From Bacillota bacterium (GTDB lineage Bacteria > Bacillota > Sulfobacillia > DUSP01 > JBFMCS01): DNA of 41,674 bases. Below are positions 1 through 25,353 of this stretch, one piece after another. The translations under genes were made by a program, and so were the position numbers. The notes beneath the pieces are model-generated. The model was not told the DNA's origin. It worked only from the letters and a program-made list of their open reading frames with translations, and made no database searches. The stretch lies in the NCBI GenBank assembly GCA_040754315.1, contig JBFMCS010000030.1, forward strand, positions 1 through 41,674, given 5' to 3'. Each line of letters opens with the position of its first letter. Position 1 is the first letter of the stretch.

Positions 1-1325
1 CTGATAGGGTTGGCCGAAGGCGATGCTGTGGGTTCTAGACCACCCAAGGTAAACCTAAGACGTAACGTCTTGATAATCTACGAGATAAGAAGTACCAGCC
101 TATCTAATCTCTAAAACCCGGAGATAGAGTACTTGGAGAAGATGCATGAACGGTACTGCAAGACCGGGAGTCAATCAGCCAAGACTGCCATGATCGACGA
201 AGTAGTGAATGTGCTTGGCTATCACAGAAAACACGCTATTCGGGTTCTCAACGGGATGCTCCCTGGCAAGCGGCCTTCGGTTAAGCGCAGAAGACAGGTC
301 AAGTATCTTGAGTCTCTCCCTGCCATCCAGTTAGTCTGGGAAGCTTTGGACTATCCATGTGCCGAAAGACTTCATCCGGTTTTGGCAAAAACCGCTCAGA
401 CACTGGCCTCTCATGGTGAGACCCACCTCACACCAAGTGTTTGCCAGCAACTTACCCAGATCAGTCGTTCCACCTTGGCAAGGCGGATATCAAAGTGGGA
501 CTGCCCGAAATTCCGTCATGCCCTAAACAAGAGACCCAATTCATCCGCAATGTCCCAAGTACCACTGGGGCGCTATGATTGGAATGAAACACGCCCCGGC
601 GCCCTAGGAGTAGACCTTGTGGAACACAACGGCGGCTCCTGCATCGGTCACTTTGCATACACATTGACCGGTAGTGGACACTGTCAGCGGTTATAGCCGC
701 CGCAGGGCCATCCTAGGGCGAGGTCAGGCCGGGGTCTTCGCCGAACTCACTAACATCCTCCAACATTGGCCCTTCAGACCCTGGGGCCTGCATTCAGATA
801 ATGGCTCGGAGTTCCTCAACAACCACATGGTACGCTTCTGCACGAAGATGAACCTTCAGTTCCACCGTAGCCGCCCTTACAAGAAGAATGACAACGCTCA
901 CGTGGAGCAGAAGAACCGCCAACTTGTCCGTGAAGTTGTAGGCTACGACCGCTTTGATACCATTGAACAAGTTGACTGGCTTAATCGAGTCTACGCTTGC
1001 CTTGACCCGTATGCTAACTTCTTCCTCCCCTTGCGCAAGGTAATCTCCAAAGAGCGCCTGGGTTGTCACGTCAGAAGGCACTATGACACGGCACGTACTC
1101 CGTTCCAGCGCCTCATTGAGGCTGGCGCCATGGACTCAGAAACCCAAGATACTATCGTCAGCCACATCAGTACCCTCAATCCCCTTGCCCTCAAACGTCA
1201 CCTTGATTCCCTTCTTCAACTTGACCCAAACTCTCTCAAAAACTGTATAATTCACGACTATCCATCCATCTTGCCGGTAACATTCCTAACTGAGTGTTCC
1301 ATCTCTCTTGGGTAACATTCTTAGA
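1..1325 (+). mobile_element. Decayed insertion element with integrase-core transposase
   Basis: The window opens inside an insertion element that carries one transposase gene broken into two frames (113-696 and 674-1315). The 3' end is marked by two direct copies of GGTAACATTC (1276-1285 and 1311-1320), the second overlapping the transposase stop codon. A 15-bp palindrome, AAGACGT-A-ACGTCTT, lies at 57-71 in the 5' non-coding part. No matching left inverted repeat was found, so the left end is either degenerate or outside the window. The right boundary is approximate because the next element starts immediately. Confidence 0.6.
115..1315 (+). pseudogene. Frameshifted integrase-core (DDE) transposase
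   Basis: This is a transposase with an N-terminal helix-turn-helix region (around GYHRKHAIRVLN) followed by an rve/DDE integrase core. The first catalytic Asp is seen in LGVDLVEHNGG, the second in SDNGSEF and the Glu in NAHVEQKN. The gene is split. Frame 1 runs to a stop at 694-696, and the rest continues in frame 2 from about 674. The two pieces join as TLT-VVDTVSGYS if one G of the GG at 670-671 is removed, so a single-base insertion explains the break. Family-like residues (EIEYLEKM) are also readable upstream of the first in-frame start at TTG 133, back to a TAA at 112-114, so the 5' end is damaged too. The exact IS family is unresolved. Confidence 0.8.
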
Positions 1326-19416: not shown

Positions 19417-19785
19417 GTGGGACAGCGCAAGGTTGAACGGGCTCAGGAAGCCCTGCGGGAGGAGATAGGCTGTATCATCCACGACGAGATGAAAGACCCG
19501 AGGATAGGTTTCGCCAGCGTGGTCCGGGTAGAGGTATCCCCTGACATACGTCACGCCAGGGTGTTCGTGAGTGTCCTGGGCAGCGAGGAAGAGAAGGCTT
19601 GTACATTGCAGGGGTTGGAGGGGGCCAAGGGCTTTATCCGTTCTGAGCTGGGAAAACGGCTCAGGCTGAGGTTCACGCCTGAGATATCCTTCAGGTTGGA
19701 TGACTCTATCGAGCGGGGAGTCAGGATTGCCCGGCTTCTCGAGGAGATGGTTCCCGCCAAGGAGGAAGGGGCTGGGGACAAGTGA
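19417..19785 (+). CDS. rbfA: Ribosome-binding factor A
   Basis: RbfA is a KH-fold factor needed for late 30S maturation and 16S rRNA 5'-end processing. The 122-residue product contains the family blocks RAQEALREEIGCIIHDEMKDPR and SVVRVEVSPDIRHARVFVSV, and near the C-terminus FTPEISFRLDDSIERGVRI. The GTG start follows AAGGAGGGG at 19403-19411. The stop overlaps the GTG of nrnA by 4 bp. Confidence 0.96.
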   Translation: MGQRKVERAQEALREEIGCIIHDEMKDPRIGFASVVRVEVSPDIRHARVFVSVLGSEEEKACTLQGLEGAKGFIRSELGKRLRLRFTPEISFRLDDSIERGVRIARLLEEMVPAKEEGAGDK

Positions 19786-20801
19786 GAGCCGGGCCCCCAG
19801 AGGTCGCCGGTCTCCTGAAGGGGGCGGAGGCCCTTCTAATCACGTGCCACATCATGCCCGACGGGGACGCCCTCGGGTCCGCCCTGGCTCTGGCCCAGGG
19901 GCTCATGGCCCAGGGTAAGAGGGTTGAGGTGGTCTGCCAGGATCCCGTGCCGGAACTCTACTCGTTCCTCCCGGGGTCCTCTCTCGTGCTCACCCCGGAC
20001 CAGGCAAGAGGGCCTCACGAGGTGGCGGTGTTCCTGGACTGTACCGATGCGTCCCGGGTAGGCGAGGCCGCACTGGCCCTGGCCAATGGCGCGCGGGTGC
20101 GCCTTAATGTGGATCACCACGTGACCAACAGCTTCTTTGGGGACATGAACTACGTTGACCCCCAGCGGGCCGCCGTGGGAGAGCAGGTCTACCTGGTACT
20201 CCAGGCCATGGGTGTCAAGGTGGGAAAACCCACCGCTATGTGCCTCTACGTTGCCATCGCCACGGATACGGGCCAATTCTGCTACAGCAACACTACCGTG
20301 GAGACCCACAGGCTGGTGGCCAGCCTGCTGGAGGACGGGGCAAATCCCGCCCAGGTATCGGAGAGCCTCTATGAATCCCGCTCCCTCCCGAGCCTGAGAC
20401 TGCTGTCCCTTGCCCTGGGCGCGCTGCGTGTCAGCCCCTGCGGCCAGGTTGCCTGGGTATCACTGTCCCGTTCAATGCTCAAAGCGGCAGGAGCCCGGGA
20501 TGACGAGGCAGAGGGGCTCATCAACTACCCCCGCTCGCTCGAGGGTGTTGCCGTGGGCATCCTCTTGAAGGAGATAGATGAAGACCGGGTGAAGGTGAGT
20601 TTTCGTTCCAGAGATCGCGTTGACGTGAGTCGCTTGGCAGCATCCCTGGGGGGAGGGGGGCATCCCAGGGCTGCGGGGTGCCTGCTAGAGATGGGTCTCC
20701 AGGAGGCGGAGGATGCCGTGGTAAGGGTGGCTCTTGAGGCGGTGAGGGAGGATAGAGGGCTTCATCAATGTTCTCAAGCCCCCGGGACTGACCAGCCATG
20801 A
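19782..20801 (+). CDS. nrnA: NrnA-type DHH phosphoesterase (nanoRNase/pAp phosphatase)
   Basis: This DHH-DHHA1 family enzyme degrades very short RNA oligomers and dephosphorylates pAp. Metal-binding motifs are visible as MPDGDALGSA (about residues 24-33), VFLDCTDASR (about 83) and VDHHVTN (about 110), with the DHHA1 substrate motif GGGGHPRAAG near residue 290. The length is 339. The GTG start overlaps the rbfA stop. The last 20 or so codons (after EAVRE) run out of frame over the N-terminal coding region of truB, which is unusual; see the truB entry. nrnA between rbfA and truB is common in clostridia. Confidence 0.94.
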   Translation: MRAGPPEVAGLLKGAEALLITCHIMPDGDALGSALALAQGLMAQGKRVEVVCQDPVPELYSFLPGSSLVLTPDQARGPHEVAVFLDCTDASRVGEAALALANGARVRLNVDHHVTNSFFGDMNYVDPQRAAVGEQVYLVLQAMGVKVGKPTAMCLYVAIATDTGQFCYSNTTVETHRLVASLLEDGANPAQVSESLYESRSLPSLRLLSLALGALRVSPCGQVAWVSLSRSMLKAAGARDDEAEGLINYPRSLEGVAVGILLKEIDEDRVKVSFRSRDRVDVSRLAASLGGGGHPRAAGCLLEMGLQEAEDAVVRVALEAVREDRGLHQCSQAPGTDQP

Positions 20802-21669
20802 CGTGGTCCAGTACTTCCGGAGGCTCCTGGGCCAGAAGAGGGTGGGGCACACTGGTACCCTGGACCCGGGTGCCGCCGGGGTGCTTCCCCTGGCGGTGGG
20901 ACAGGCCACCCGTCTCGCCGAGTACCTGCTGCTCCTGGGCAAGTCCTACCGCTTTGAGATCACCCTGGGGGTGACCACGGACACCCTCGATGCCTCAGGC
21001 CGGGTGGTCTCCGAGGCCCTAGCCAGGGTGACCGCCAGGGATCTGGAGGGGATCCTCTCCGTATTCACCGGCAGGGTCCAGCAGGTGCCTCCCATGGTGT
21101 CTGCCGTGAGGCGCCAGGGGGTCAGGCTTCACACCCTGGCTCGGAGGGGTATGGAGGTAGAGAGGGAGCCCAGGGAGGTCCAGATCTACTCCCTGCACCT
21201 GGCCGCATTCTTCCCTGGTGAGCACCCCCGTGCCTTGCTGGACCTGGCCTGTTCGTCGGGTACCTACGTGAGGGTGCTGTGCCAGGACATGGGAGAGGCC
21301 CTGGGTTGCGGGGCACACATGTCCTTCCTGGTAAGGACCGTTTCCGGGCCTTTCATCCTGGGTGAAGCCCTCCTCTTGGAGGAAGCGGCGGGAATGGCCC
21401 GGGCCGGCAGGGCCCAGGACATGCTGGAACCCATGGAACGCGGGGTGGCTCACCTGCCCGAGGTCAAGGTGCCATGGGATGAGATAGGGATGGTAGCCAC
21501 GGGGCGGCCTCCCAGGCTGGCCTCACCGGATGGCTTGGTCCGCCTGGTGTCTCCCGGCGGAAGGCTCCTGGCCGTGGCCGAGGGAAGCCAAGGCGAAGCG
21601 AAGCCCCGGAAGGTGTTTGTTTCCAAACTGAGGGGAGAGCAGGATGAGGATCACCAGGAACGTGGATGA
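20752..21669 (+). CDS. truB: tRNA pseudouridine(55) synthase, non-standard start
   Basis: TruB makes pseudouridine 55 in the T-loop of tRNAs. The catalytic Asp lies in GHTGTLDPGAAGVLP (about residue 38). The conserved N-terminal block GFINVLKPPGLTSHDVV is encoded at 20758-20805 but is not preceded by any ATG, GTG or TTG. The frame opens after a TGA at 20743-20745 with GGG AGG ATA GAG GGC. The only codon matching the usual start of the family is ATA 20752, right behind GGGAGG. GTG 20803 is a legal start but removes the conserved KPPG segment. Possible explanations are a rare AUA start, coupling to nrnA with frame slippage, or a base error. The gene overlaps nrnA by 50 bp and ribF by 26 bp. Confidence 0.88.
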   Translation: MEGFINVLKPPGLTSHDVVQYFRRLLGQKRVGHTGTLDPGAAGVLPLAVGQATRLAEYLLLLGKSYRFEITLGVTTDTLDASGRVVSEALARVTARDLEGILSVFTGRVQQVPPMVSAVRRQGVRLHTLARRGMEVEREPREVQIYSLHLAAFFPGEHPRALLDLACSSGTYVRVLCQDMGEALGCGAHMSFLVRTVSGPFILGEALLLEEAAGMARAGRAQDMLEPMERGVAHLPEVKVPWDEIGMVATGRPPRLASPDGLVRLVSPGGRLLAVAEGSQGEAKPRKVFVSKLRGEQDEDHQERG

Positions 21670-22507
21670 CCTCGGGAACACGGGCAAGTGCGTGGCCATG
21701 GGCTTATTCGATGGGGTTCACATGGGACACCAGACCTTGGTGAAGAGGCTGGTTACAGCCGCCCGGGGTGCCGGGGGCAAGGCTGTGGTGCTTACCTTTG
21801 ACCCCCACCCGCTGGAGATACTAAACCCGGCTTTCGCGCCCCCGTACCTAACCAATCTTGAGGAGAAGGCCCTCCTTTTGGAAGCCCTGGGGGTCGATGA
21901 CCTGCTGGTGCTGGCCTTTGATGCCTCCTTCTCCAGGCTGAGCCCTGAGGCCTTTGCTGGGGGTGTCCTGGGCAGGATCAGACCATACCAGGTATTCATC
22001 GGCTATAACTTCACATTCGGCCACAAGGGACTCGGCACCGCCCATACCCTTGTGGAGATGGGGCGCAAGCACTCCTTTGAGGTTCAGGTGGTGGACCCGG
22101 TGAAGTACAAGGGTGCAGTAGTATCCAGCACCCTCATACGGGACAGTATAGGCCAGGGAAGAGTGGAACTGGCCAATGAGATGCTGGGCAGGGCCTACAC
22201 CCTCCCCGGGGTCCTCGGCAAGGAACCCCAGGGAGGCACCAGCCTTGGCTTCGGGCCGGGCCGGGCCCTGCCGGGCTCCGGTGTATACGCTGTCCGCTGC
22301 CAAGCCGGCAGAGCCCTTGACGGGGTCTGCCTGGTAAGATGGCCAGGTCCCCGGATCCTCGTGGATTCACTGGGTCCTGCCCTCCCCGAGGGGCCAGCCC
22401 GTGTTACCTTTCTGAAGCACTGGAGGGGTTGTCTTCCCCAAGCCCTGGAGGACCGTCACTGCATGTGGGCCCGCCGGGCGCTGGACGGCACGCCTTGGTG
22501 GGTCTGA
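21644..22507 (+). CDS. ribF: FAD synthetase/riboflavin kinase homologue with degenerate kinase domain
   Basis: RibF normally makes FMN from riboflavin (C-terminal kinase) and FAD from FMN (N-terminal adenylyltransferase). The N-terminal half looks functional: GLFDGVHMGHQTLVKRL (about residues 20-36), LTFDPHP (about 50), GYNFTFGHKGLGT (about 120) and VVSSTLIRDSIGQG (about 161). The kinase half is poor. Where a GFPTAN motif is expected, only SLGFGPGRALPGSGVYAV is seen, and the later acidic and DLYG-type segments are missing; the product is 287 residues, slightly short. It may be a monofunctional FAD synthetase, with the kinase encoded elsewhere. The ATG follows GGGGAGAGCAGG. Confidence 0.85.
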   Translation: MRITRNVDDLGNTGKCVAMGLFDGVHMGHQTLVKRLVTAARGAGGKAVVLTFDPHPLEILNPAFAPPYLTNLEEKALLLEALGVDDLLVLAFDASFSRLSPEAFAGGVLGRIRPYQVFIGYNFTFGHKGLGTAHTLVEMGRKHSFEVQVVDPVKYKGAVVSSTLIRDSIGQGRVELANEMLGRAYTLPGVLGKEPQGGTSLGFGPGRALPGSGVYAVRCQAGRALDGVCLVRWPGPRILVDSLGPALPEGPARVTFLKHWRGCLPQALEDRHCMWARRALDGTPWWV

Positions 22508-22968: not shown

Positions 22969-25353
22969 GTGCAGGAACAGGGGGGTGCACCGAAGGGCCC
23001 AGTCGACACAGATGACCGAGGCTTTTTCGAACACCACAGGCGAGTGGAAATGGATCTGGGCGGACGGCCCATCTCACTGGAGACAGGCAAGATGGCCCGG
23101 CAGGCTGGCGGCTCTGTCATCGTCTCCTATGGTGGGACGGTGGTGCTGTCGGCGGCCACCGGTTCGGAAAGACCCAGGGAGGGCGTGGACTTCCTGCCCC
23201 TCACCGTTGACTACGAGGAACGCCTCTACGCGGTGGGTCGCATCCCTGGCAGCTGGACAAGGAGAGAGGGAAGGCCCCACGACAAGGCGATACTGGCGGC
23301 CCGCCTAGCCGACAGGGGACTCAGGCCTCTCTTTCCCGAGGGCCAAAAGCGTGACGTGCAGGTGGTCAACATGGTGCTCTCCGTGGAACAGGACAACGCC
23401 CCGGAGATATGCGCCATCAATGGCGCCTCAGCGGCGCTGATGCTCTCTGAGATACCCTTCATGGGACCCATTAGCGCCGTGGAGGTGGGGATGGTCGATG
23501 GCAGGCTCATCGTGAACCCCACCCATGAGGAGACCCAGAAGAGCCTCATGCGTCTCACCGTAGCTGGAACACGGGACGCGGTGCTCATGGTGGAGGCGGA
23601 GGCCAGGGAGGTTTCCGAGGATCAGATACTCAAGGCCATCGCCCTGGCTCACGATGTCATCAGGGACCTGTGTGATCTCCAGATGAGGCTGGTGCAGGAG
23701 GCAGGGCGAGGCAAGGTGGATGAGGAGGCTCCCGGAGCCCTCCAGTCCCAGGTGGAGTCCATGGTAAGAGCTTACCTGGCTGAACTCATAGAGACCCCCC
23801 AGGGGATACCGCCAGCTAAGAGCCTTGAGGATATAAGGGGCATCCTGGAGCCCCTCAGGAAGGAACACCCCGACGAAGACATCAACCAGGCCTTCAAAGA
23901 CGTCCTGGCATCGGAGATCAAGGCCCGGGTACCCTCCCTTGTCAGGGGCGTCCTGAGAGAAGGCATCCAGAAGGCCGTAGAGGTGTCCAGGTCAGGCAAG
24001 GCAGACGGCATATCCCTGAAGAAGGAACGGGAGGCCCGGCTGGACCGGGCGCAGGACGATGCCTGGAAGCGGCTGGCACCGCTCCTGCCCGGATGGGAAA
24101 AAGAGGTCAGGGGTGTGATCTACAAGACACTGAAGACCGTTGTCCGCCGGATGATGCTGGACGAGGAGGTCCGCATAGACGGGCGCTCCCCTACGGAGGT
24201 AAGACCCATCTGGTGCGGTGTGGGTGTTCTTCCCAGGACCCATGGCTCAGCCCTGTTTACCAGGGGTGAGACCCAGGTGCTCACCGTGGGTACCCTGGGG
24301 GCCGTGGGCGACGTCCAGATGCTGGATGACGTGGATGAAGAGGAATACCGCCGCTTCATGCACCACTACAACTTCCCTCCCTTCAGTGTGGGGGAGGCGC
24401 GTCCCATGAGGGGCCCCGGCCGCAGGGAGATCGGTCACGGAGCCCTGGCCTCCAAGGCCATTGAGGCGGTGCTGCCAGACGAGGAGTCATTCCCCTATAC
24501 CATCAGGCTGGTCTCCGAAGTGCTGGAGTCCAACGGCTCTACATCCATGGCCTCGGTTTGCGGGAGCTGCCTGTGCCTGATGGACGCAGGGGTCCCAATA
24601 AAGGCTCCGGTGGCGGGCGTTGCCATGGGCCTGGTCAAGGAAGATGACAGGGTCGTGGTGCTCACGGATATACAGGGCATCGAGGATGCCCTTGGGGACA
24701 TGGACTTCAAGGTGGCTGGAACCGATAAGGGCATAACGGCCCTGCAGATGGATGTGAAGAACACCGGTATAGGCCATGATGTGCTGGCCAAGGCGCTGGA
24801 GCAAGCCCGTGAGGGCCGGCTTCACATCCTTGCCCGGATGCTCAAGACCATCTCTGAACCTCGACAGGACCTGTCGCCCCACGCGCCCAGGATCATTTCC
24901 CTCAGGATAGACCCGGAGAGGATCCGCGACATCATTGGCCCGGGCGGCAAGGTCATACAGAAGCTCCAGGCGGACACCAACACAAAGATCGACGTGGAAC
25001 AGGACGGCCGCGTGTTCATCTCTGCCTCCGACCCCGAGGGTGGGGCCAGGGCGGAACAGGCCATCCGGGCGCTAACCGCAGAGGTTACCCCTGGCGAGAT
25101 CTACACCGGCAAGGTGACGCGGCTCATGAACTTCGGGGCCTTCGTGGAGATCCTCCCCAACAAGGAGGGCCTCGTCCACATCTCCGAGCTGGCCGAGGGT
25201 AGGGTTGGCAAGGTGGAGGACGTGGTGGCGGTGGGAGACGAAGTGGTTGTCAAGGTGCTGGAGATCGACCGGCTGGGAAGGGTCAACCTCTCCCGAAGGC
25301 AGGCCCTGAAGGGTTCCGACCGGGGTGACGGGTGTGGTTCAAGAAGGTCCTAG
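22969..25353 (+). CDS. pnp: Polyribonucleotide nucleotidyltransferase (PNPase)
   Basis: PNPase degrades RNA 3' to 5' by phosphorolysis and can add tails. The 794-residue product has a first RNase PH domain (from [20 protein letters not shown], about residue 38), a helical linker, a second RNase PH domain (from [18 protein letters not shown], about 402), a KH domain ([13 protein letters not shown], about 652) and an S1 domain ([17 protein letters not shown], about 710). It is longer than the usual 700-740 residues owing to an N-terminal extension of about 25 residues and a long linker. GTG 22969 has GAAGGAGGAGG just upstream. CTCCTT at 22933-22938 could pair with the AAGGAG in this binding site. 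Confidence 0.97.

Follow-up and report, generated by a model that had tools for sequence, protein, structure and literature searches.

Among genes with non-canonical start codons, infC is the classic example; it starts with AUU, AUC, or AUA and is autoregulated by its product, IF3. IF3 discriminates against non-canonical starts in general. Such starts have rarely been proved outside infC. TruB, the subject of this analysis, is a tRNA-modifying enzyme made by nearly all bacteria. In Staphylococcus aureus, the AUA starts of infC and ccpN work at about 10-30% of AUG, and the ccpN start is conserved to Bacillus subtilis (PMC13009471). The sigR gene of Streptomyces, which is not an infC gene, has a GTC start repressed by IF3, and its IF3 dependence was tested (PMC5472188). 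In a literature search covering mostly papers readable without subscription, no report of a non-canonical truB start was found.

The truB gene analysed here has a probable AUA start and lies in a window of 41,674 nucleotides (the whole stretch of DNA under study). It shares with infC the AUA start, an in-frame TGA just upstream, an identical spacing with the infC of its own genome, and an extended Shine-Dalgarno sequence, although that of truB is weaker (-12.9 vs -17.0 kcal/mol, computed with the usual 16S tail, which may differ from the host's own tail). Unlike infC, truB encodes no IF3 and thus would exert no feedback on itself, and its start lies inside the upstream gene. The AUA start is also common to truB and S. 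aureus infC (PMC13009471). The ccpN gene of Staphylococcus and Bacillus resembles truB in being a non-infC gene of Bacillota with an AUA start and a good Shine-Dalgarno sequence (PMC13009471). However, ccpN encodes a transcription repressor and its start is conserved between genera, whereas the ATA of truB was seen in a single genome, others having CTG or ATT. As with truB, the sigR start is non-canonical, was missed by annotation, and belongs to an operon whose genes overlap (PMC5472188). In contrast, the sigR start is GTC with a tested IF3 dependence, while that of truB is ATA with a presumed one. Probably, truB is to be added to the genes already known for such starts (infC, sigR, and ccpN).

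The start region of truB

A preliminary description of this DNA had claimed that truB lacks a standard start codon that would keep its conserved N-terminus, that ATA 20752 is the only codon matching the usual start of the family, and that nrnA runs about 50 bp into truB in another frame. The bases around the ATA were re-read and are as described there, and all of these observations hold (Table 1). In the truB frame, the TGA is followed by GGG AGG ATA GAG, and the next codons, GGC TTC ATC AAT GTT CTC AAG CCC CCG GGA CTG ACC AGC CAT GAC GTG GTC, encode the conserved block GFINVLKPPGLTSHDVV. No ATG, GTG, or TTG occurs in this frame between TGA 20743 and GTG 20803, which is therefore the first standard start codon and corresponds to the first Val of the DVV inside the block. 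Position 1 of the TIGR00431 (TruB) profile aligns at the ATA codon. The match extends over profile positions 1-208 of 210 and scores 226.7 bits against a curated cut-off of 151.45 (E 2.3e-67), making the product a full-length member of the TruB family. In alignments with solved TruB structures (E. coli, T. maritima, and M. tuberculosis-type), the query is covered from residue 2-3 onward. The gene is single-copy in the genome, and its operon also encodes NusA, IF2, and RbfA. The nrnA ORF overlaps the truB start by 50 nt (20752-20801), and its stop codon lies 47 nt past the ATA.

Table 1. Features of the truB start region (positions in the window).
Feature	Position	Strand	Evidence or remark
nrnA, overlapping the truB start in another frame	19782..20801	+	NF053633 match; open reading frame list
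Shine-Dalgarno match GAGGcGGTGA, 6 nt before ATA	20736..20745	+	duplex -12.9 kcal/mol with the usual 16S tail
In-frame TGA closing the truB frame upstream	20743..20745	+	rules out starts further upstream in frame
ATA, proposed truB start codon	20752..20754	+	sole codon at the family start position; TIGR00431 position 1
truB, tRNA pseudouridine(55) synthase, 305 codons + stop	20752..21669	+	TIGR00431; TruB structure alignments
Conserved N-terminal block GFINVLKPPGLTSHDVV	20758..20808	+	conserved in class and phylum relatives
GTG, first in-frame standard start, rejected as the main start	20803..20805	+	would lose most of the conserved block; weakest Shine-Dalgarno computed

It had also been pointed out that the ATA stands next to GGGAGG. 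The adjacency is real, while a role of GGGAGG as the Shine-Dalgarno sequence is ruled out, since a spacing of 0 nt is too close. The GAGGcGGTGA element, which sits inside the nrnA coding sequence, is better placed, at a proper spacing from the non-canonical codon. Its duplex has one unpaired C and is of only average strength, within the range of the other genes in the operon (-7.2 to -18.5 kcal/mol, with the same 16S tail). Local RNA structure around the truB start gave no signal (z -0.42 and 0.05). A resemblance of GGATAG to the nrnA stop of the same-order genome G002 was dropped, as the two, compared by eye, are not in register.

Some neighbouring genes have features of their own. The pnp gene (window 22969-25353) has 794 codons against a family model of 689 positions, which it matches in two stretches. 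It seems to carry an insertion near residues 260-345 as well as extra sequence at the N-terminus. The matches of RibF (window 21644-22507) to its families span only about residues 13-221; its C-terminal riboflavin kinase part goes unrecognised and may be lost or diverged. A short frame at window 674-1315 resembles the C-terminal part of IS3/IS481 transposases and is probably a fragment.

The infC gene of the same genome

The infC gene lies on the minus strand of contig C59 and reads GGGAGGTGA-CCGGCT-ATA AAA GAC CTG CGG GTT AAC GAG. An in-frame TGA is located 9 nt before the ATA, with no standard start between them. The truB gene reads GGCGGTGA-GGGAGG-ATA, likewise with an in-frame TGA 9 nt before the ATA, and thus has the same GGTGA-N6-ATA geometry. 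The pattern GGNGGTGAN6ATA was found to have 9 matches genome-wide, against 3 for a reversed control. Only two of the matches head a long frame, namely infC (169 codons) and truB (305 codons); the frames behind the other seven have 56 codons or fewer. Among the sampled class genomes, the infC starts that were read are ATT, ATC, or ATA, and thus the IF3 rule is general in the class.

truB starts in related genomes

Is a non-standard truB start found elsewhere? The closest relatives of this genome share only its order, at 47-49% identity, and both same-order genomes (G001 and G002) have a standard truB start available. The order is represented by three genomes, and a search for close relatives gave only 41-48% matches, from other phyla; the best match in a DNA search of the class had 75% identity over 229 bases. 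Most class members have a standard start at the family position of truB, at protein identities of 57% or less; at such distances these starts carry no decisive weight against the ATA.

The comparison covered 217 distinct start regions of truB, taken from the class and the phylum. In 98 of them the block is preceded by a standard start at a distance of two codons, the most frequent arrangement in the phylum, and in 38 the distance is three codons. Nine regions lack any standard start within 30 codons; of these, six (the present genome, G019, G099, G100, G260, and G183) are closed by a nearby in-frame stop codon. As the sole choice of a truB start, ATA was seen in the present genome only among the 217 regions.

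Other codons recur. In family f44, CTG GAC is invariant at the truB start in all seven genomes (L050, L184, L185, L186, L217, L220, and L295), while the codon preceding the CTG (-3) has six forms in the seven genomes and two genomes have a stop at codon -4. An invariant CTG with a sharp upstream boundary is what a true start codon would look like. The overlap of nrnA with the CTG amounts to about 25 nt in most of the seven genomes, and ordinary gene callers would put these starts in the wrong place. A CTG start of truB also appears in family f20. The block is preceded by TAG CCG AAA CTG GAC in G019 and by TGA ACG CTG GAC in G099 and G100. In two genomes of family f78 (G260 and G183; loci L233 and L257), an ATT lies between an in-frame TAA and the block, with no ATG, GTG, or TTG, and this ATT, 9 nt after AGGGGG, is likely the start in both. 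The third f78 genome (G224) has both GTG and ATA. Family f27 (L132, L128, and L003) is the closest group to the ATA-start truB on the tree (93/88 support). There, GGAGGTGTC precedes a CTGA that combines the CTG with the overlapping stop codon of nrnA (GGAGGTGTC..C-CTGA). The CTG of f27 is only a probable truB start, because two of the three genomes carry a GTG further on.

Control genes were counted only where the flanking DNA sufficed, and each had a standard start (ribF 65/65, nrnA 63/63, rpsO 32/32, and rbfA 49/49), giving 0 of 209 non-standard starts. Against this background, the missing standard start of truB goes beyond chance. On the tree, the four rows with a non-standard truB start need four changes and were grouped in 0 of 200 bootstrap trees, while the strongly supported branches alone force only two changes to a non-standard start. 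The f44 members sit on a long branch, and their placement is unsure.

Alternative explanations of the ATA codon

AUA (ATA 20752) is quite probably the start codon used by truB. The suggestion of a rare start codon in the preliminary description has gained support from the ATA geometry of the genome's own infC, from a Shine-Dalgarno sequence favouring ATA over GTG 20803, and from the recurrence of non-standard truB starts. The main rival, which the same description had raised and which I consider improbable, is a base error of the assembly or a minority variant at 20754, with ATG as the real sequence (GGGAGGATGGAGGGC) and an ordinary truB. A single transition would yield ATG, the genome is a 65-contig assembly, and ATG, GTG, or TTG is usual at this place in the class. 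However, such an error would need to strike one of very few bases, at a mid-contig site with no homopolymer. Moreover, infC shows that this organism uses ATA starts with the same spacing, and the conserved non-standard truB starts of other families cannot be errors.

It is very unlikely that truB starts instead at GTG 20803 by termination-reinitiation after the nrnA stop (TGA 20799-20801), giving a TruB without its first 17 residues. The distance from the nrnA stop to the GTG is 1 nt, as is common in coupled genes; a gene caller restricted to ATG, GTG, and TTG would pick this GTG, and the PF01509 match begins only downstream, at 20818. On the other hand, the missing residues include the conserved KPPGxTS block, which both the structures and TIGR00431 cover, and this block shows no damage, in keeping with its being translated. 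The Shine-Dalgarno duplex at the GTG is also the weakest of those computed, at -5.1 kcal/mol.

A +1 ribosomal shift from nrnA into truB within a 55-nt overlap, or an NrnA-TruB fusion split by an indel, is scarcely credible: nrnA is open through the overlap (20746-20801) with truB in its +1 frame, but no recognisable slippery site was seen by eye, and in the relatives read there is no fused frame, nrnA and truB being separate with an own start in all. Least plausible of all is a truB decaying after the loss of its start codon, an idea that fits the missing standard start but not the 305 intact codons, the profile score far above the cut-off, and the status of sole copy in the genome.

Discussion

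How might the AUA start of truB work? The 30S subunit would bind GAGGcGGTGA, 6 nt upstream of the ATA and inside the nrnA coding sequence. The initiator tRNA would then read AUA with a third-base mismatch, in a direct initiation of reduced yield. As IF3 discriminates against AUA, the output of TruB would be a fraction of the rate from AUG. When IF3 is scarce relative to ribosomes, more TruB would be made, in parallel with infC, whose start codon and spacing are identical. Translation initiation from AUA in vivo, its low yield, its IF3 dependence, and any benefit are all four inferred. That an IF3-linked regulation of truB is under selection is conceivable, and I propose it with some doubt.

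It had also been speculated that the rare start serves as a coupling device. A coupling of truB to nrnA by termination-reinitiation at the ATA is unlikely, because the ribosome would have to run 47 nt backwards from the nrnA stop. The CTGA junction of f27 would suit reinitiation, whereas the ATA case here does not, and thus the non-standard truB starts may have more than one cause.

The recurrence of non-standard truB starts across families is the more interesting part of the finding. It suggests that truB has repeatedly been held at low or regulated translation. A more speculative proposal, advanced with greater reserve than the regulation of this truB by IF3, is that truB is a second recurrent target of IF3 start-codon discrimination in Bacillota: several families would have taken AUA, CUG, or AUU independently, which would link TruB-dependent tRNA pseudouridylation and folding to the balance of IF3 and ribosomes, in an operon with IF2 and RbfA. 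Gene callers hide non-canonical starts; in this genome they would settle on GTG 20803, at the cost of 17 conserved residues of TruB. If truB genes repeatedly start with AUA, CUG, or AUU, the truB annotations in these families need correcting, and the gene would offer a comparative handle on non-infC genes under IF3 control.
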